Part shown: positions 2,865 to 20,040 of the stretch, piece after piece
Position numbering within the stretch: the stretch's first letter is position 1
Layout of the letters: each line of letters opens with the position of its first letter
Source of the DNA: a virus
Length of the DNA stretch: 37,817 bases
Direction: 5' to 3' (one strand)
Virus record (IMG/VR): IMGVR_UViG_3300045885_000389
Coordinates: 1 to 37,817 of that record
Notes under the pieces: model-generated
Seen by the model: only the letters and a program-made list of their open reading frames with translations
Databases searched by the model: none
What the model was told of the DNA's origin: nothing
Program-made: the position numbers and the translations under genes

Positions 2865-4563
2865 ACGGCTCAGTGACGATCGTGATTGCCGTGTCTTTGC
2901 AGCCGGTCGCCGTGAACCGCAACGTGATCACGGTGCCGTTCAAATCGGCAGCGGCGAGATTGATCGTGTAGAAACCGTTGCCCACTTCGCTGACGGAATT
3001 TGCGCAGGCGTCGAACGTACCGCCGTCGATCCTACGGGTCGCGGTAACCGTCGCACCAGTAGCTGGGTTTCCGGACGTATCCAGCATCCGGAAGGTGAAG
3101 TTCGCCAGCGCCACATTCTTGACGACCCCCTGTGCGACGCCGGCGTGCCCTTCAGCGCTGTGCGAAAGGCTGATCGCCTTGCCGGATCCGTTCGCTGTGA
3201 TTCGCAACCCGTCGGTGTTCGGCGTCGGAGATCCGGACGATCCTGCAGAGATGGTCGCTCCGTGGCTGAATGTCGAGGAGATCTCGAGCCCAACGCCGTT
3301 GACAGAACTAATTGCTAAACCCGGTCCGGTTGCAGAAGCAAACTCCACCGCAGTTGGCCCCTCCACATAAACGGCCCTCTGCCCGTAAGAGACAAGTTCC
3401 AATGCCGAACCGAGGTTGAAACCTCCAAAGACCTGTATGCCATGTGCAAATCCGGAGGAATGTCCACCTGTAATAATTACACCGCCAGAATCCCCTTCGA
3501 TTTCTACACCGGCGCCATCAGCGGTGATCCCAAGACCGGCGCCGTTTGTAGAGGTTATCTGTAGACCTACGCCTGAAGTCGATCCAGCATTTATCTCCAC
3601 GCCGCTGCCGCTGCCAGCCCCAGAGACTTTGAATCCTGACCCATTACCGCCAGCGACCAATTCAAAAGCCGTCCCACTGGACTCAACATAGATACCGGCG
3701 CCTGCACCGCTACCTGTGATCCTAAAGCCGTGCGCTGTTTGTGTCGGAGATCCACCTCCGGCAGCGACCGATACGCCAGGTCCAGTTCCATTGCCGGTGA
3801 TCGCAAGTCCGGTCCGATTTGTCGTCGCGGCAACGATCGATATACCATCGCTAAATGAGGTCAACCCTGAAACGGTCAGCGTGGCAAACGTTGTCGCCGC
3901 ATTCGATCCGGCGATAAGCAAACCGTTCGCGGCACCAGGTACCGCCGTAGGCAGATTCACCTTCGACATCACCATGATATTGTCTGTCGCAGCCGCGGTG
4001 AACGTCGTTCCAGCGGCGAGCGTGACCGTCTTCGTCGACCCGGTGTAATCGCTTACGATTGCAAATCCGCCCTGCACTGCACTGGCGACGTCGTGGATGT
4101 AGACGACGCAGCCGTTCAGCGCGTCGTCTTCCGCGGGGCCTACGGTGAGCGTGAAGCTCGTCTGAGTCGACAGCGTCGCGATGGTCGTGTTCAGCGTCGC
4201 TTCAGGCAAGCCGATGCTGAACCGCGCGATCGGGAAGTACACCGTTTGTGAGTCCACGGTGACCGGACCGATGATCACGAGATACTCGGAGCCAGCCGCC
4301 CAAAAGCCGGCATGCGTGTTGTCGGAGAGATCAATCGACGCGAGATTGATGCCTACGATTCCGGCATTCGGCGAACCTGGATCGAAGCTCGTGGTGGCGG
4401 TTATGCCAGAGCTAACGCCGCGCCTAGTCGTTCCGTCCTTGAAAACCAGTATGTCGGCGTCGGCATAGTTGGACGCCGCACTTGATGCACCGGTCGACGC
4501 CGCGTATGACCCCCACGGGAAGCGAATTGTTAGCCCTGGCTTGACCAACCCAAGATCGATCAT
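2863..4563 (-). CDS. Large tail-fibre protein with glycine-rich beta-repeat region
   Basis: A 566-residue fibre-like protein. The first ~120 residues (WGSYAAS, DILVFKDGTTRRGV, ITATTSFD, GIVGINLASIDLSD, AAGSEYLVIIGPVTVD) form a beta-rich N-terminal domain that I recognise from many phage fibre proteins, probably the virion-anchoring part. The middle (~210-480) is a run of short Gly/Ala/Ser beta strands with recurring GxGV/GxGL turns (GPGVSVAAGGG, GAGIYVESSGT, GVGLQITSTNGAG), consistent with a beta-solenoid shaft. The last ~75 residues (FTFRMLDTSGNPATGATVTA) look like an Ig/Cna-type cap. The start overlaps the spike gene stop as ATGA. The DNA coding for the middle part is visibly more AT-rich than its flanks, which hints at domain exchange. 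Confidence 0.75.
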   Translation of the reverse strand: MIDLGLVKPGLTIRFPWGSYAASTGASSAASNYADADILVFKDGTTRRGVSSGITATTSFDPGSPNAGIVGINLASIDLSDNTHAGFWAAGSEYLVIIGPVTVDSQTVYFPIARFSIGLPEATLNTTIATLSTQTSFTLTVGPAEDDALNGCVVYIHDVASAVQGGFAIVSDYTGSTKTVTLAAGTTFTAAATDNIMVMSKVNLPTAVPGAANGLLIAGSNAATTFATLTVSGLTSFSDGISIVAATTNRTGLAITGNGTGPGVSVAAGGGSPTQTAHGFRITGSGAGAGIYVESSGTAFELVAGGNGSGFKVSGAGSGSGVEINAGSTSGVGLQITSTNGAGLGITADGAGVEIEGDSGGVIITGGHSSGFAHGIQVFGGFNLGSALELVSYGQRAVYVEGPTAVEFASATGPGLAISSVNGVGLEISSTFSHGATISAGSSGSPTPNTDGLRITANGSGKAISLSHSAEGHAGVAQGVVKNVALANFTFRMLDTSGNPATGATVTATRRIDGGTFDACANSVSEVGNGFYTINLAAADLNGTVITLRFTATGCKDTAITIVTEP

Positions 4564-5633
4564 TGGACAATCCTTGGCATAGTGAGCGCGCTACGCGTGA
4601 GCGCGCTACGCGTGAGAGGTCCGGCTGCGCCGCCGGCCGCCGCAAAGAATTCGAAACACCCGACGTCGTAGTTCACGCCGTCACGTGCAAGATCTCGTAT
4701 GTCGGTCGACACGAGCGCACCAGCGGCTGTCTGGTATAGAGAGCTCGACGTATCCTTTACAGTAAACACGCTCGATGACGTGGTGCCCGGACTGCCCCAA
4801 GCGTCTGTGGGGGCTCCGAGATCGATCTCGCCGTTCGTTGCAAGGTCGAAGTCCTCTGTGGCGTTGTCGTCGTAATTGACGGTCCCGTTAGTGCCAACTT
4901 CGATAATGTCGTTGCCGCTCGTCCCGGCAATCGCGTTGGCTTTGACGTTCTGAACTGGAGCGCCGGAGCCGCCACCGCGGTGCACGACGATGCCGTTCAC
5001 TCCGCCATAGCAGGTGTTGTGCTGGATGTGATACGTTGGAGAGAAGTTGTTGACAATCTCGCCTCGAATCTGCGAATCCTGAAACCCGACAACGAGGTTG
5101 TTCTCGAACGTTTTGGTGGCACTCCCTCCGACCGCAGACCCATCGCGGCCAATCCCTACGTCGGTGCTGCTCGTGTTCAGAACACGACACTTGCGAATAG
5201 TCACTGCTCCGGTCGTGGTGTAGGTAATGCCGGTCCCGCTTGCTCCAGTGTGAGCCGATTCGACCTGAATGCCGTCTACCGTAGAATTCGGTTCGTTGAG
5301 AACGAATCCATTGGCTGTATTGCCGGGGGTGAGCCGGTAGTGCGACGAGCTTGTGACTGCGTTACCGGTATAGAATCCTGCGGGGTCTGACCGATTCCCT
5401 CGAATCAAAAGCGTGCCAGTCGTGAGATTGACCGTGAAATCCCAAGTCACCGCCGTCGTATCTGCGGAGGTCCCGCAGCAGTCCAGGATGTAGTCATCTG
5501 TCGCCGACCCACCCATGTTGGCCTCGGCCTCGGACTGCGAGGCGTACGCGCGCGTCGCGCCGGCCGTGCCGTTCGTCGTGCCGTCTCCGCCCGCGCTCGA
5601 CGCGGTATTACAGTAGCGCTGAACGGTCGCCAA
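4560..5633 (-). CDS. Beta-helix tail-spike-like protein
   Basis: A 357-residue protein with a TTG start at 5633. The middle has the look of a right-handed parallel beta helix of the pectate-lyase/tailspike kind: recurring short strands and turns such as NSTVDGIQVESAHTG, GAVTIRKCRVLNTSS, FENNLVVGFQDSQIRGEIVN and IQHNTCYGGVNGIVVHRG, with asparagine and glycine at turns. Such proteins bind or depolymerise surface polysaccharide; no catalytic residues can be assigned from sequence alone. The C terminus carries a duplicated LTRSA peptide. It lies between a small virion protein and a large fibre, overlapping the latter's start. The start is uncertain because no good ribosome site precedes it. Confidence 0.72.
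   Translation of the reverse strand: MATVQRYCNTASSAGGDGTTNGTAGATRAYASQSEAEANMGGSATDDYILDCCGTSADTTAVTWDFTVNLTTGTLLIRGNRSDPAGFYTGNAVTSSSHYRLTPGNTANGFVLNEPNSTVDGIQVESAHTGASGTGITYTTTGAVTIRKCRVLNTSSTDVGIGRDGSAVGGSATKTFENNLVVGFQDSQIRGEIVNNFSPTYHIQHNTCYGGVNGIVVHRGGGSGAPVQNVKANAIAGTSGNDIIEVGTNGTVNYDDNATEDFDLATNGEIDLGAPTDAWGSPGTTSSSVFTVKDTSSSLYQTAAGALVSTDIRDLARDGVNYDVGCFEFFAAAGGAAGPLTRSALTRSALTMPRIVQ
4582..4616 (-). repeat. 15-bp direct repeat at the spike C terminus
   Basis: Two exact copies of a 15-base unit (gtgagcgcgctacgc on the plus strand), plus five bases of a third, lie at the 3' end of the spike gene. They encode LTRSA twice, so the frame is kept. Exact identity suggests a recent slippage duplication. 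Confidence 0.85.
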
Positions 5634-5639
5634 TCTACT

Positions 5640-6053
5640 TCACCACACCACGTCAGTGAGTTTTCTGCGGTCCGCGCGATGCGCGTACATCGCGGAGAAC
5701 TCGGCCCATGTGCAAGTGGCCTGTCGCTCTGTGAGCAGCGCCGCGGCAATCCTTCCAGGGATCAGGGAAACGTCTGCCTCATAGGCGCGCTTCGCCTGCA
5801 TCTGCGTCATTCTCTCCGGGCCGGCGAATACCTCGCGGATATCTGGCTCGCATAGCTTCTCAGCGAGCTGTCGCGCCGAATCCACTGGGCAGCCCGTGAC
5901 ATGCAGGTATCCAGTGCGCGGCGCACTCACGATTTCGATCGCGTGCATCTGATACACACACACCGGCGAGAGCACGGGCATCTTGGAGTGCGAACTACGC
6001 GAGTAGTCTGCGTCTCCTCGAGGCGGGAGCATCACGCAGATGGTGAGATCCAT
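5640..6053 (-). CDS. Unrecognised small protein between virion genes
   Basis: A 137-residue protein that I do not recognise. It starts at an ATG that overlaps the upstream stop (TAATG), so it is co-translated with the virion protein before it. The N terminus is beta-rich (LTICVMLPPRG, MPVLSPVCVYQMHAIEIVSA, TGYLHVTGCPVDSA), and the C-terminal half is helical with many charges (ARQLAEKLCEPDIREVFAG, MQAKRAYEADVSLI). No signal peptide, membrane segment or enzymatic motif is visible. A virion assembly or fibre-associated role is inferred only from its neighbours. Confidence 0.6.
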   Translation of the reverse strand: MDLTICVMLPPRGDADYSRSSHSKMPVLSPVCVYQMHAIEIVSAPRTGYLHVTGCPVDSARQLAEKLCEPDIREVFAGPERMTQMQAKRAYEADVSLIPGRIAAALLTERQATCTWAEFSAMYAHRADRRKLTDVVW

Positions 6054-14660: not shown

Positions 14661-14713
14661 GCAGCCACCCGAGAGGCATGATATTGGTTATTCCCACTGA
14701 ACTTCTTCATCAT
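14657..14713 (-). CDS. 18-codon coupled small ORF
   Basis: A tiny frame reading MMKKFSGNNQYHASRVAA. Its first ATG overlaps the dehydratase stop (ATGA), and its stop overlaps the PfpI start (ATGA). It fills an otherwise untranslated gap and could act as a translational relay. It resembles no known peptide; real function as a peptide is doubtful. Confidence 0.35.
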   Translation of the reverse strand: MMKKFSGNNQYHASRVAA

Positions 14714-15678
14714 GCTGTTATTTTGAAAGTTGCGTCCATGCTGAGCAGTTCCGGGTACGATCGCACCCAGTGCACCATCTCTTCGAGTCCGTGCTCGAGC
14801 GAGATCTCCGGCGCCCAGCCAAGTTCCATGATCTTGAGAGAGTCGATCCAGTAACGCGCGTCTTCGCCTGTCCGCGCCGGCACCTCCTCGACAACGTCCT
14901 GCCACGTCTTGCCAGCCGCCGAGATCGAGGAAGCGACCAAGCTTCGAATGCTGACCGGCTGTTGCGGTCCGCAGTTGTATGTTTCCCCGATCGCACCGTG
15001 CTCGATCACCGTCATGATCGCGCGCGCCAGGTCCGTGGCGTGCATGTACGATTTGCGCGCCAGCCCACCGCCCTGCAGCCTTAGCTTCCGCCCGGAGAGC
15101 GCGCAGATGATCGCGCGCGGGATGATCCTGTGCAGCTGCTGACCCGGACAGTAGCAGTTGCTGGGGCGAAGCACGTTCACCGGGAACCCGTGCACGCGAT
15201 GCATGACCTGCAGATGCAGATCGAACGCCGCCTTGCTGATCGCGTACGGACTCGTTGGCGTCAGCGCATCGGTTTCGAGTGAGGGTCGATCGACGCTGCC
15301 GTAGACCTCGCTCGTCCCGGCCTGGATGAACCGCTGCACGTAGTCGCGCTTCCGTAGCTCCTCCGCGAAGCGCACCATCCCGAGCGTGTTCGTCGCGTAG
15401 AAGTAATCGGTGTGCTCGCCGAAGGACGCCGCACTCTCGCCTTGAGCCGCGAAGTTCACGACGATGTCGGGGCGCTCACGGTCAAGCATCGCCAGGACCT
15501 CTGCGAGGTGCTCGACGAGGTGCATCACGTGATAGCGGTAGTCGTGATCCACCTGCCAGAGACCCGGCGGTTTCGGGCCGCGCCGCCCGATCCCGAAATG
15601 CTCGATGCCGAGGCTATGCAGATGGTCCGCGAAGTTCAGCGCGTAGACGTTCCCGCCGCCGAGGATTGCGATCTTCAT
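14710..15678 (-). CDS. NDP-sugar 4,6-dehydratase-like extended SDR
   Basis: A 322-residue extended SDR of the RmlB/GMD type. The active-site set is TSEVYG (Thr122, Glu124) with YAISK (Tyr145, Lys149), as in 4,6-dehydratases. The substrate half has RPSNCYCPGQQLHRIIPRAI and RKSYMHATDLARA, like RmlB and GMD. The product would be an NDP-4-keto-6-deoxy sugar, a common branch point for unusual sugars. The nucleotide-binding loop is odd: it reads GGGNVYALNF where the family has GGxGFIGS. The start overlaps the glycosyltransferase stop as ATGA. Function as a dehydratase is likely, but the altered loop lowers certainty about the cofactor. Confidence 0.78.
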   Translation of the reverse strand: MKIAILGGGNVYALNFADHLHSLGIEHFGIGRRGPKPPGLWQVDHDYRYHVMHLVEHLAEVLAMLDRERPDIVVNFAAQGESAASFGEHTDYFYATNTLGMVRFAEELRKRDYVQRFIQAGTSEVYGSVDRPSLETDALTPTSPYAISKAAFDLHLQVMHRVHGFPVNVLRPSNCYCPGQQLHRIIPRAIICALSGRKLRLQGGGLARKSYMHATDLARAIMTVIEHGAIGETYNCGPQQPVSIRSLVASSISAAGKTWQDVVEEVPARTGEDARYWIDSLKIMELGWAPEISLEHGLEEMVHWVRSYPELLSMDATFKITA

Positions 15679-16349
15679 TGAGCGGTCTGGTGGTGGATGT
15701 AAGCGTCCCACCAGTCCTTGCTGTGATCGCCGCTTGCGAAGCTCTCGTAAGCTGGAATGCCGTTGGTGTAGTGGAGCAATTTGGCGTCCGGATTGTTCTC
15801 GTATTCCCCGACTAGCCAGTTCCATTCCAGCGCAAGGTCGCCGACGCGATCCTCCGGCAGCCACTCGAATTGGTGCAGATGCGCGCCGGTCGCCTTCTCG
15901 ACGTACTCCGGCGTCAGCTGGCGGCAAAACCCGGAGGAGTTCCGGAACAGCATCACGCTGGACCAGTTCTTCTTCGGATAGGCGGTCTGTTTCGACCCGC
16001 GGAACTTGACCCTGAGCTTCGGGGTGTAGTCGTGCTTCACGACCTTCACCGCCGACCAGAGATCACCCTTGAGCTGGTCGCAGAGCTCGCCGATGTCCGC
16101 CTTCAGCACCATGTCGCCGTCGATGTAGAGACTCTCACCGACGAAGTCCGAGAGATACGGGACCAGCCACCTTGAGTAAGCGAATTCGGTCGAGGCGTCC
16201 TGGTGCGTCTCGGTGAAAATCCCGCTCAGCGAGTTGAGCGCGAGCGGCACGATCGAGACCGGGCGCTTCGCGTATCGCGCTATCGAGTCGCAGCAGACTG
16301 CGTACGCTATCGCCTCGCGCGGGTCATAGCCGACGAAGACGTTCAGCAT
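15675..16349 (-). CDS. GT-A glycosyltransferase (GT8-like)
   Basis: A 224-residue protein. It opens with NVFVGYDPREAIAYAVCCDS and continues with STEFAYSRWLVPYL and SLYIDGDMVLKADI, where Asp77 and Asp79 form the metal-binding DxD motif. This layout is that of small GT8-like transferases found in bacterial and phage glycan clusters. It would transfer a sugar from an NDP donor to a glycan or protein acceptor; donor and acceptor are unknown. It lies between the ThDP-enzyme C-terminal part, whose stop overlaps its start, and the dehydratase gene. Confidence 0.75.
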   Translation of the reverse strand: MLNVFVGYDPREAIAYAVCCDSIARYAKRPVSIVPLALNSLSGIFTETHQDASTEFAYSRWLVPYLSDFVGESLYIDGDMVLKADIGELCDQLKGDLWSAVKVVKHDYTPKLRVKFRGSKQTAYPKKNWSSVMLFRNSSGFCRQLTPEYVEKATGAHLHQFEWLPEDRVGDLALEWNWLVGEYENNPDAKLLHYTNGIPAYESFASGDHSKDWWDAYIHHQTAQ

Positions 16350-16996
16350 CTGAGATTTTCGGCGATCTCCTCCGGCGGGAGATACGGCCACGAATCCTCG
16401 AGCGCGGTCTGCACGATCTTGCCGTCGGCGTCGCGTCGGTTCACAGATTTCGGGATCTGCGCCTGGTTCGGGTCCATCATGACTTCCATTAGGAATGGCC
16501 CTGGCCCCTCCAGCGCCAGCTGGAGTCGATGCCTATTGAGCTCTGCCATCTTCGAATATGTGATGCCATCGTGCGCAAGCGCGATGTCTTCGAAATCTGG
16601 GAATGAAAGTCCGGACGAATCGTCGCTGCCCATGTAGCCGTCGAACGCGTGCGCCTGGCTCTGTCGCATCGTCAGATACCCGCCGTTGTTCAGCAGGAAG
16701 ATCTTGATCGGCAGTTGCTGGTGCGAGATTGTCGCGAGTTCCTGCATGTTCATCATGAGCCCGCCATCGCCGATGAGCGCGATCACTCGCTTGCCGCTTC
16801 CGACCGCGGCTCCGATAGCCGCCGGCAGTCCCCAACCCATTGCGGCCAAACCGCAGTTGGTCATGAGACGCTGACCGAGCTTGATGTGCCAAGCCTGGTG
16901 GCAGGTATTAAACGAAAACCCCATGTCCGTCACGATGACATCATCGGGGCCGGCCAGATCCGAAAGCACACTCACGAGTCCGTAGCTGTTTATCAC
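16343..16996 (-). CDS. C-terminal part of a split acetolactate-synthase-like ThDP enzyme
   Basis: A 217-residue protein starting with GTG at 16996, which overlaps the stop of the HNH gene as GTGA. It is the whole pyrophosphate-binding domain of an acetolactate-synthase-like enzyme: DDVIVTDMG near the start, CGLAAMGWGLPAAIGAAVG, and the ThDP/Mg motif GDGGLMMNMQ...LLNN (76-104). Joined with the part at 17631-18743 it gives about 587 residues, the normal length of one enzyme. The split lies in the linker between the middle and PP domains. Two separate chains could assemble into an active enzyme; this has to be shown. In glycan clusters such enzymes (YerE-like) can add a two-carbon unit to a keto-sugar. 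Confidence 0.85.
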   Translation of the reverse strand: MINSYGLVSVLSDLAGPDDVIVTDMGFSFNTCHQAWHIKLGQRLMTNCGLAAMGWGLPAAIGAAVGSGKRVIALIGDGGLMMNMQELATISHQQLPIKIFLLNNGGYLTMRQSQAHAFDGYMGSDDSSGLSFPDFEDIALAHDGITYSKMAELNRHRLQLALEGPGPFLMEVMMDPNQAQIPKSVNRRDADGKIVQTALEDSWPYLPPEEIAENLRC

Positions 16997-17634
16997 AGCA
17001 AGAATCCTCTGGATTGCATGAACTCGATTGGATCCTTGCGGTTCTTGCTCGTGTTGCATGGCGCGCAAAGCCACTGGATATTTGCAATCCAGTTAGAGCC
17101 TCCTGCGACCAATGGAATGATGTGATCCTTGTGCCCACCGCCGTCGAGTTTTTCGCGGCACACCGCGCAGCGATCACGCTGCTTCTCACGAAGCGCTTTA
17201 AGCTGAAGGTAGTCGTGTGCCCCTTCGGCAGTTCTCTCGCGCAATCGACCTGCGGCCTTTACTAGTCGTCGGCGTTCTGGATTGGCGTTTCTCCAACGCC
17301 GAGTCCGTTCGCGCACAATCTCTGAATTCCGCTTGTATCGCTCTGCGGCAGCGCGGCGTATTTTGCCTTTGTTGCGTGCCGCGTATTCCTTCACCCGATT
17401 CTTAATCTCTTCTTTGCGAGCTTCGTAGCGCGCCTTGTCATAGGCTCGCCGTTGTTCAGCCGTGGCGCTTCGACGGGCAGTGATCTTCTGGATGTTCCTG
17501 GCGTACGTTGTGCGTCGCCACTTTAGGATCTTCTCCGGATTCTCCGCTGCGTAGACGGCGTAATAGTGGGTCCGACACATGCCTCTGCTTCTAGAATCAC
17601 GCGTGCAACCTTCAACGGTGCATTGCTTCTTCAC
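16993..17634 (-). CDS. HNH endonuclease inserted in a ThDP-enzyme gene
   Basis: A 213-residue basic protein. The N-terminal zinc module has QCTVEGC, GMCRTHY; the middle (~40-140) is a long Arg/Lys/Glu helical DNA-binding stretch; the C-terminal nuclease has CAVC (156-159), KDHIIPL (His171), then NIQWLCAPCNTSK. That is a complete HNH core with its zinc cysteines. It starts with GTG at 17634 overlapping the stop of the N-terminal ThDP part, and its own stop overlaps the GTG of the C-terminal part. The frame fills the whole interval, so no room is left for a group I ribozyme. It is most likely a free-standing homing endonuclease that has colonised and split the host gene. Confidence 0.88.
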   Translation of the reverse strand: MKKQCTVEGCTRDSRSRGMCRTHYYAVYAAENPEKILKWRRTTYARNIQKITARRSATAEQRRAYDKARYEARKEEIKNRVKEYAARNKGKIRRAAAERYKRNSEIVRERTRRWRNANPERRRLVKAAGRLRERTAEGAHDYLQLKALREKQRDRCAVCREKLDGGGHKDHIIPLVAGGSNWIANIQWLCAPCNTSKNRKDPIEFMQSRGFLL

Positions 17635-18743
17635 GAGACTTGATCCTCTGTGACCGGCGGGTACTTCGCCTGCCATGCCTTGCACCGTTCGAGCCACGCC
17701 GTCCAATCCGGAAGCTCGACGCCCTCCAGCTGCGCATTGAGATCCACCAGAAATGCGCGCGCATCAGCTTGGATCGGAAATTTGACCCAGACCGTGTCCT
17801 TGTCAAGTTCGGCGCGATCGATATCGACCATCACGATCGTGGCGTTGCGCGCGTAGTCGCGCGCGTTGTAGCCGGTCTGCGCCAGCGAGAGTCTGGTGCC
17901 GATCGCGATGTAGAGATCGCAGGTCTGCACGGCGAAGTTCGCTCCGCGCTGCGCAAACGTGCCGGGGCGTCCGGCGTAGAGCGGGTGTTCGGAGTCGATC
18001 AGATCCGCCCCGTTCCGCGCCGTCACCACCGGGATCCCGGTCCTTTCGAGGAACTTCGCCAGTTCCTGCTCCGCTCCTGAGAGTCGAATGCCTTGCCCGA
18101 TGTGCAGCAGTGGGCGCTTCGCTTCTTGGAGCATCAGCGCCACGCACTGTAGGTCTGAGCGCTGCGGCGCTGGTCTCGCCGATGAAACCAACCCAGCCCC
18201 ATGCAGCGCCGACGGATCGATCTTCGCGTTCTGAATGTCGGCGGGGATATCGAGCCAGGTCGGCCCCGGGCGTCCTGATCGCGCCATACCAACAGCCATC
18301 TCAAGATGAAATCGGATGTCAGCCGGATCGCACACCACCGCCGCGTACTTGGTGATAGGCCTCACCATGTCGACGATGTTGATCTCCTGCACGCCCAGCG
18401 TGCGCAGCCCCGGCGCGCGGGTGTGGATCATCTGCCCGGAGAAGACCTGGCCCGAGATCGTGATCGTCGGGACGCTGTCCGTCCACGCGCCGGCGACACC
18501 GGTGATCGCGTTCGTGCCGCCGGGGCCAGAGGTTACGATCGCCAGACCGAGTCCGGTTCTGACCCTGGCGTAGGCTTCCGCCGCCATCGCCGCGGCCTGC
18601 TCGTGGTGGCAGGCGACGTAGCGCATTTTCTTCGCCTTCGCCAGCGCGTCGCAGAGGAAGATGGCGCCGCCGCCGCAAACCGTGAAGGCGTGGTCAATGC
18701 CCTGTCCTTCGAGAAACTCGATCACATAGTCAGCCAAGCGCAT
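17631..18743 (-). CDS. N-terminal part of a split acetolactate-synthase-like ThDP enzyme
   Basis: A 370-residue protein holding the pyrimidine-binding domain (about 1-170) and the middle domain (about 190-345) of an acetolactate-synthase-like enzyme. The catalytic Glu is in ACHHEQAAAMA (Glu48), followed by IVTSGPGGTNAITGVAGAW. The middle domain has RPLLHIGQGIRLSGAEQE and the strand TIVMVDIDRAELDK. The chain stops at EDQVS, exactly at the linker to the PP domain, because an HNH gene follows. Alone it lacks the ThDP diphosphate/Mg site and cannot be active. The start ATG overlaps the cupin stop as TGATG. Confidence 0.87.
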   Translation of the reverse strand: MRLADYVIEFLEGQGIDHAFTVCGGGAIFLCDALAKAKKMRYVACHHEQAAAMAAEAYARVRTGLGLAIVTSGPGGTNAITGVAGAWTDSVPTITISGQVFSGQMIHTRAPGLRTLGVQEINIVDMVRPITKYAAVVCDPADIRFHLEMAVGMARSGRPGPTWLDIPADIQNAKIDPSALHGAGLVSSARPAPQRSDLQCVALMLQEAKRPLLHIGQGIRLSGAEQELAKFLERTGIPVVTARNGADLIDSEHPLYAGRPGTFAQRGANFAVQTCDLYIAIGTRLSLAQTGYNARDYARNATIVMVDIDRAELDKDTVWVKFPIQADARAFLVDLNAQLEGVELPDWTAWLERCKAWQAKYPPVTEDQVS

Positions 18744-19180
18744 CAGTAGCCCTGCCCGGCGCGCCCGTAACGGTCTTGGATGCGCACGAGGTCTCGCTTG
18801 TTCGTCGGTGTTTCGATCTCGAGCACGACGGCGCCCTTCGGCGCGCGCGTGCGGTGGAACGCACCCTTGTTGATCGTCACGACGTCCCCGGCGCGCAGCG
18901 CCTTCGATCCGGCAAAGGTCTCAAGCACGCACTCACCCGATTCGACGATCAGCACGGTCTCTTTGGCGGTATGGCAATGCATGGAAGTCTCCGCGCCCGG
19001 GTTCAGCACGAGACGCCAGATGCTGACCGGTCCGGCGCGATAGATCTCGCTCTCGTATCCCCAGGGCTTCTCCACGATCTTCCCAGCCCAATCCGTGCCG
19101 TCGTCGATCAGCGATTCGGAGTCCACGCCCGCGCTTTTCAGCGCGTCACGATCCTTGTCGAGCTGCAATACGTGCAGCAT
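18743..19180 (-). CDS. Cupin-domain protein, mannose-phosphate-isomerase-like
   Basis: A 145-residue single-cupin protein. The core starts at KPWGYESEIYRAG, and metal ligands are in TSMHCHTAKETVLIVESGE (H-x-H...E) and the second motif GAFHRTR. The KPWG opening is typical of cupins related to type II mannose-6-phosphate isomerase that sit in LPS and capsule clusters. It could isomerise or bind a sugar phosphate; related single cupins have no proven activity. It overlaps the oxygenase stop (TGATG) and the ThDP-enzyme start (TGATG). Confidence 0.75.
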   Translation of the reverse strand: MLHVLQLDKDRDALKSAGVDSESLIDDGTDWAGKIVEKPWGYESEIYRAGPVSIWRLVLNPGAETSMHCHTAKETVLIVESGECVLETFAGSKALRAGDVVTINKGAFHRTRAPKGAVVLEIETPTNKRDLVRIQDRYGRAGQGY

Positions 19181-20040
19181 CAGGGGAGTACCTCTGGGAT
19201 ATTCAGTTTCACCGGTCGCCCGGTGTGCCGGTTCGGCACCTCGTCGCTCGCATTCGAGTACATCGACAGGAACCAGCGTCCATCGATGTCGTTCCAGTCC
19301 GGCGTCTTCGTTCGATCGCAAGGTGCCACCCCGTGGTAGACGGTCGCGTACCCAACACAGGCATCGCCGATCTCGATGTAACGCTCGATATCCATGACGC
19401 GATCCCCTACGCCAATGGCGTAGAAACCGCCGCCGTGGTAATCGACGCCGCGCTTGCTCATGTAGCCGCTGAAGAACAATCTCTGATGCAGGTGCGGGTC
19501 GGCGTGCGGCTCCAGAAACCCGATCGCCGGCGGGTAGCGCACCACTTGGATGCGATCCACCACGCCGTCCTTGGGCGTGTTCCGTTCGTACTCGTCGCCC
19601 TTGAGACCCATCAGCTGCTTGATGATGCGCCAGCGCTGCGTGACCATGGGCCAGATGCCGAGGGGATCATCATTCCAGCGGTAGAAGTACGCCGAATGCT
19701 TGCAGCACGCGAAGCTGTACTTACGCCCCGACTCCAGATCGATCGCTCGATGGAAGTCCGGCGACCCTTCGAGCATCTTGTGGAAGCTCGATGGCGCCGA
19801 GCGCATGAACGCGCTCGCCGCGTCGCGGATGTAGTGCATTTCGGCGACATGGAACGCGCCCTTCAGAATCAGGAGATCGCCGGCATAGAGGCAGCGTGCG
19901 AGCTCCAGCGCAAGCCATGAATCCTTCGTCTCGACGGCGCGCTGTACTTTGCTGAAGTCCATCGTCAGCACTTGTCGCGCGCGGCTCGGCAGATCGGCAC
20001 GCCGCTCCACCTGCTCCCAGGCGTCGCTGAATACGCTCAT
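19180..20040 (-). CDS. Putative 2-oxoglutarate/Fe(II)-dependent oxygenase
   Basis: A 286-residue protein. The double-stranded beta-helix core is suggested by the Fe ligands: H-x-D in LEPHADPHLH (His179, Asp181) and a distal His in ATVYHGVAP (His236), followed about 19 residues later by an Arg in DGRWFLSM (Arg255) that could bind 2-oxoglutarate. Spacing and order fit PhyH/prolyl-hydroxylase-like oxygenases. The N-terminal third is helical. It probably hydroxylates a small molecule, sugar or protein side chain. It lies among glycosyltransferase-like genes and overlaps the next gene as ATGA. A later in-frame ATG at about residue 27 is an alternative start. Confidence 0.68.
   Translation of the reverse strand: MSVFSDAWEQVERRADLPSRARQVLTMDFSKVQRAVETKDSWLALELARCLYAGDLLILKGAFHVAEMHYIRDAASAFMRSAPSSFHKMLEGSPDFHRAIDLESGRKYSFACCKHSAYFYRWNDDPLGIWPMVTQRWRIIKQLMGLKGDEYERNTPKDGVVDRIQVVRYPPAIGFLEPHADPHLHQRLFFSGYMSKRGVDYHGGGFYAIGVGDRVMDIERYIEIGDACVGYATVYHGVAPCDRTKTPDWNDIDGRWFLSMYSNASDEVPNRHTGRPVKLNIPEVLP

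Follow-up and report, generated by a model that had tools for sequence, protein, structure and literature searches.

A ThDP carboligase gene of an uncultured phage is split by an HNH endonuclease gene, most likely a freestanding one of the homing type, and the insertion has probably turned a one-chain YerE/AHAS-like enzyme into a two-chain one, in which both chains would assemble into an active carboligase and the endonuclease would be mobile. The virus record IMGVR_UViG_3300045885_000389 was analyzed over its whole length of 37,817 nt (positions 1 to 37,817, hereafter the window); it encodes a terminase large subunit, a portal, and a head protease/major head protein, and the split locus is surrounded by sugar genes recognized with Pfam, in line with the sugar-cluster setting described in an earlier note on this DNA. 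The coordinates that the earlier note had assigned to the N part, the HNH gene, the C part, and the GTGA overlaps at both ends are exact to the base. The features of the locus are the following:

17631-18743, minus strand: N chain of the ThDP enzyme, PYR and central domains, 370 aa (Pfam TPP_enzyme_N and TPP_enzyme_M)
16993-17634, minus strand: HNH endonuclease gene inside the ThDP gene, 213 aa (Pfam HNH_5 and HNH)
16343-16996, minus strand: C chain of the ThDP enzyme, PP domain, 217 aa (Pfam TPP_enzyme_C)
17631-17634, minus strand: GTGA overlap of the N-part stop and the HNH start, with CAGAGGAT and its AGAGG upstream (from the sequence)
16993-16996, minus strand: GTGA overlap of the HNH stop and the C-part start, with CAGAGGAT upstream, where it encodes SRGF of the HNH tail (from the sequence)
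18743-19183, minus strand: cupin gene directly upstream (Pfam Cupin_2), syntenic in the phage relatives L003 and L001
19180-20061, minus strand: conserved neighbor gene without Pfam match, homologous by eye to L003 540-1400 and L001 1262-2155 (syntenic)
14710-15678, minus strand: GDP-mannose 4,6-dehydratase/epimerase-like gene (Pfam Epimerase and GDP_Man_Dehyd)

The N part ends with ...GAG GAT CAA GTC TCG TGA, and the GTG of the HNH gene occupies 17634-17632; the HNH gene ends with ...TTC TTG CTG TGA, its TGA being at 16995-16993, and the C part starts with GTG ATA AAC AGC TAC, its GTG being at 16996-16994. Both junctions had been read in this way before (EDQVS with TCGTGA leading into the HNH gene, CTGTGA into the C part), as had the frame shift expected on removal of the unit between them: the GTGA-to-GTGA distance of 638 nt equals 2 mod 3, and the N and C frames differ. 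Since stop and start codons overlap at both ends of the insert, the production of the enzyme as two chains is the most likely outcome. The 8-bp element CAGAGGAT lies upstream of both GTG starts and brings AGAGG to each of them (the chance expectation for such a match, estimated from the lengths compared, is ~0.1); its copy in the HNH gene encodes part of the SRGF of the conserved tail, and CAGAGG is also present upstream of the cupin start. CAGAGG occurs 12 times on this strand and lies within the counted upstream range at 2 of 248 NTGA sites, and the anti-SD duplex energy at both GTG starts is unexceptional, within the best 17-27% of NTG sites. Excision through the two copies of the octamer was considered and discarded, since it leaves the N and C frames out of register, and both octamers are SD-like sequences lying ahead of the GTG starts.

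The relatives carry the gene in one piece. Phage relatives from other IMG/VR contigs (L001, L003, L004, L005, L095, and L096) are uninterrupted at the split point of the window, and L003 shares the upstream gene order (homologue of the 19180-20061 gene, cupin, ThDP enzyme). A genome scan found the bacterial relatives uninterrupted as well wherever this could be judged (for example L097, Gallionella MAG), and in L097 the ORF with the C match also holds the N match. In L098, L100, L102, and L108, the best N or C match fell on a neighboring paralogue, and the orthologous ORF, complete at 595-614 codons, can be aligned over the split point; L105 holds the last part of the gene only, yet it is contiguous there. 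L094 begins within the gene and was left out of this judgement, and L113, a weak match, was left out of the alignment. The identity of the relatives to the window enzyme reaches 67%. Given relatives that read through this point, the split is a derived state. The earlier note had proposed that relatives with an intact gene be sought to locate the insertion point, and that close relatives with both parts always separate and devoid of the HNH gene would speak against its reading; those found, phage and bacterial, have contiguous ORFs.

The linker from KYP to NSY, 13 residues long in most relatives, is down to 10 in the window (8 ahead of the stop, 2 from the new start), so that ~9 nt, about three codons, were lost or replaced at insertion. 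Hence, the view that the two parts join into one normal acetolactate-synthase-like enzyme holds for their order, since the single PHROG 11199 is matched by the N part at 12-360 and then by the C part at 375-562, and fails for the length, the linker being ~3 residues short. The AlphaFold model of the L003 enzyme (pLDDT 87.9, pTM 0.90) has a helix at 342-354, a short helix at 360-363, a loop at 364-370, and a helix at 371-381; the N chain of the window ends at the equivalent of residue ~364 and the C chain begins at ~368. In the model, the cut thus falls in the loop that joins the central and PP domains, which agrees with the interdomain position proposed earlier.

The two chains together retain the makeup of the enzyme. 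All three TPP domains (PF02776/PF00205/PF02775) score above cutoffs and are spread over the two chains, with TPP_enzyme_N (1.5e-34) and TPP_enzyme_M (9.4e-37) in the N part and TPP_enzyme_C (1.6e-30) in the C part. The catalytic Glu (HHEQA) belongs to the N part, and GDGGLMMN and LLNNGGY, which form the GDGG...NN ThDP/Mg motif, belong to the C part. In both fold and sequence, the intact L003 enzyme is best matched by JanthE/YerE-like carboligases (8rph, 8rpi, 8rpj; E 6.7e-128), and its model superposes on JanthE 8rph, the closest solved relative, with a TM of 0.91 and 38% identity; the model of the C chain matches the C part of JanthE and of AHAS. The enzyme is most likely a YerE/AHAS-like ThDP carboligase. 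YerE-like enzymes attach two-carbon or longer units to (deoxy-)keto sugars in branched-sugar pathways (PMC12247030). The similarity to JanthE and the GDP-mannose dehydratase-like neighbor (14710-15678) suggest keto-sugar carboligation of the YerE type; because this neighbor sits two genes downstream of the split locus, the predicted role in branched-sugar synthesis is plausible, and its product is a possible source of the keto-sugar acceptor. In the phages collection, the best ThDP matches of a protein search are merely 36% identical, and a DNA search with the window gave no match.

The insertion could instead have inactivated the carboligase, the halves being still open since the event was recent. 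We consider this unlikely. The split occurs once, the gene, a sugar gene, is probably accessory, and the C part has a slight surplus of window-specific changes with some outgroups (26:11, 27:12, and 29:12 in triplet counts), but with the outgroup L097 there is no such excess (15:23). Both frames are open, and 71 of the 72 columns nearly invariant in the other relatives are kept (44 in the N part and 28 in the C part), the sole change being L to A. Identity to the intact L003 enzyme is 68% for the N part and 67% for the C part, with similar divergence (dN 0.27 and 0.31, respectively; dS about 1.3), and at 1.10 the C/N distance ratio of the window falls within the range of intact enzymes (0.84-1.12). 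The halves do not clearly decay, by these measures, and a recent slight relaxation may have occurred. The precise start/stop overlaps with SD-like AGAGG at both ends and the position of the cut, predicted to be in a loop, also argue against a dead enzyme, as does another fission that the family appears to have tolerated.

That second fission is found in the phage contig L090, where an enzyme of this ThDP family reads as two ORFs of 177 and 399 aa (3992-4525 and 4512-5711). The cut is at the linker between the PYR and central domains, the second ORF begins at an ATG within the end of the first, with 14 nt shared, and no endonuclease accompanies the cut. As L090 is one contig, a sequence error is possible; its linker is ~25 residues shorter, which favors a real deletion. 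L090 thus suggests that this ThDP family tolerates the two-chain state.

Other variations of the family were observed among the relatives. L001 (3855-5765) has an in-frame, cysteine-containing insertion of ~30 residues (EKPCPHDSDGAASGSCPSCLAISKAPHNKIRG) directly before GDGG that is absent from the relatives aligned, and L004 (5371-7761) has the cupin and the ThDP enzyme fused into a single ORF. In the bacterial loci L098 and L108, the first ORFs (~780-790 aa) resemble the ThDP C domain and directly precede a second ThDP gene, which suggests tandem ThDP gene pairs.

Splicing to a single chain, with the HNH frame belonging to a group I/II intron or to a fractured-gene split intein, is very improbable. 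Phage introns commonly carry HNH genes, and the folding of the insert RNA is slightly better than that of shuffled sequences (z -2.3), a value that alone is not evidence of a ribozyme. Nevertheless, a search for Rfam introns in 3 kb around the locus returned nothing up to E=5, and the whole window returned nothing at gathering thresholds. Moreover, the HNH homologues align through the final residues RGFLL, and therefore the 3' end of the insert is protein-coding and conserved; the coding frame fills the interval, and the earlier remark that no room is left for a ribozyme is borne out. As for inteins, Pfam finds no intein domain in the proteins of the locus, the N and C parts are in different frames across the insert, and the N chain stops two residues past EDQ, at EDQVS. 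Both the intron and the intein were accordingly rejected as candidates, and a freestanding endonuclease gene is preferred.

The inserted gene belongs to a broad HNH family (Pfam HNH_5 1.5e-10, HNH 4.5e-9) and conserves the HNH motif and the zinc CxxC pairs (H168, D170, H171, N185, C156/C159, C190/C193, N194). Its GC3 of 0.60 is below the 0.69-0.84 of the split gene and of the other genes measured in the sugar cluster; because two genes elsewhere in the window reach 0.64-0.67, the difference counts as supporting evidence only for an insert compositionally foreign to the gene that it splits. A single-sequence scan found no viral relatives of the HNH protein, which were found with an alignment as the query; 80 HNH relatives were fetched, with a best-segment identity of at most 54%. 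Those whose flanks were examined sit between genes, as in L019, L046, and L058 (Cas4 exonuclease, HNH, ResIII helicase) and in L021 (major tail protein, HNH, tail chaperone). Local tblastn of the flanks against all loci, which detects only genes whose uninterrupted relative is among the fetched loci, singled out this window among 61 HNH loci as the one with flanks contiguous in a relative (L002 is a copy of the window), and neither flank Pfam/PHROGs nor local tblastn revealed further split genes adjoining the HNH relatives. Since the examined relatives lie between genes and the flank comparison singles out the window, the landing inside a gene looks like an exception. One pair of loci presents an HNH relative in the occupied (L017, ~4001-4573) and empty (L018, ~2034) states, and the genes at the empty site meet at TAAATG.

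The split is carried by one contig only, and the absence of a second copy among the records searched (near records may lie outside the search) would fit an assembly or chimera artefact of this metagenomic IMG/VR contig. Such an artefact is, however, hardly credible: a 4-nt overlap marks both ends of the insert, which lies at a domain linker; the upstream flank has the gene order of L003; and this HNH family typically has such overlaps and such a tail.

Side observations concern the HNH genes themselves. In L006 (2770-3588) and L019 (1809-2954), the HNH protein starts with or includes an apparent copy of the N-terminus of the downstream helicase (LRPYQERCLADLWHWFE), as if the HNH gene had landed in the helicase gene and the helicase start had been regenerated afterwards. 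The 9-kb contig L149 has two HNH genes, at 1294 and 5823, both with the FMQSRGFLL-stop NTGA tail. A role of the HNH 3' tail as a DNA recombination site was rejected, as its codons are not generally conserved and only a few tails (L029, L021, L044) are close.

It is conceivable, and here proposed tentatively, that the family carries its own translation-preserving ends, so that an insertion between phage genes, or within one, would leave the part downstream expressed. Specifically, the NTGA start may couple the HNH gene to any upstream gene, and the codons of the conserved G-x-L-L-stop tail may hold a Shine-Dalgarno element and an NTGA restart. Among 62 relatives, SD-like tails are commoner with ATGA/GTGA ends (12/24 versus 5/38; Fisher p=0.002, kinship ignored), and compared with synonymous shuffles, the tails bind the anti-SD better in the ATGA/GTGA group only (Wilcoxon 8e-6, kinship ignored). 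A further set, overlapping the first and selected for a fixed FMQS-x-G-F tail, has a weaker trend (14/19 versus 12/23, p=0.13), with a GGA/GGG glycine codon in 18/19 versus 15/23 (p=0.02). The association between SD-like tails and NTGA ends is thus a lead rather than a result. If this proposal is true, the HNH family can convert one-chain enzymes into two-chain ones.

Taken together, the most probable course is that a freestanding homing-type HNH gene inserted in the interdomain linker codons of a phage ThDP carboligase gene, replacing about three of them. The N chain would then end at the TGA within the GTGA start of the HNH gene, whose own terminal TGA would fall within the GTGA start of the C chain, and a polycistronic mRNA would be translated in the order N, HNH, and C by start/stop coupling, with AGAGG ahead of each GTG. 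The chain with the PYR and central domains and the catalytic Glu (N) and the chain with the PP domain and GDGG...NN (C) would assemble into an active two-chain enzyme. This suggests how such insertions are tolerated, namely through start/stop overlaps at both ends that sustain downstream translation. ThDP carboligases, which are useful biocatalysts, would be a new enzyme class for endonuclease-made gene splits, and the split site, along with the fission point of L090, is a concrete candidate for trans-complementation. To our knowledge, known examples of a mobile endonuclease turning a single-chain enzyme into two chains are few.

Several known systems resemble parts of this arrangement. Phage HNH proteins of the PHROG 1035/2118 type (e.g., of Synechococcus phage Ssp-JY40) have the same HNH core and G-x-L-L-stop tail as the window, and their genes frequently have an NTGA overlap with the next gene as well; the relatives of this type that were examined lie between genes, whereas the window HNH lies within one. 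Naturally split ThDP enzymes exist, such as the sulfopyruvate decarboxylase ComDE, which has PYR and PP domains on separate chains, as does the window enzyme, but ComDE-type systems are ancient pairs of genes that lack a central domain and an endonuclease. A literature search found no report of a ThDP enzyme split in the present manner. JanthE is one chain with CDG (PMC12247030), while the window enzyme is in two chains with GDGG. The closest precedents are phage genes split by freestanding endonucleases: the parallel drawn earlier with nrdA of phage Aeh1 is documented, this gene being split by mobE (HNH, freestanding) to give an active two-chain enzyme, and further cases are T4 gene 60 with mobA and gene 43 of phage 25 with a seg gene, the halves of gene 43 likewise giving an active two-chain enzyme (PMC2988022). 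In T4-like phages, mobE overlaps the upstream stop codon, like the window HNH gene. In comparison with Aeh1 nrdA/mobE, the gene split in the window codes for a ThDP carboligase and has 4-nt GTGA overlaps on both sides, with no gap.
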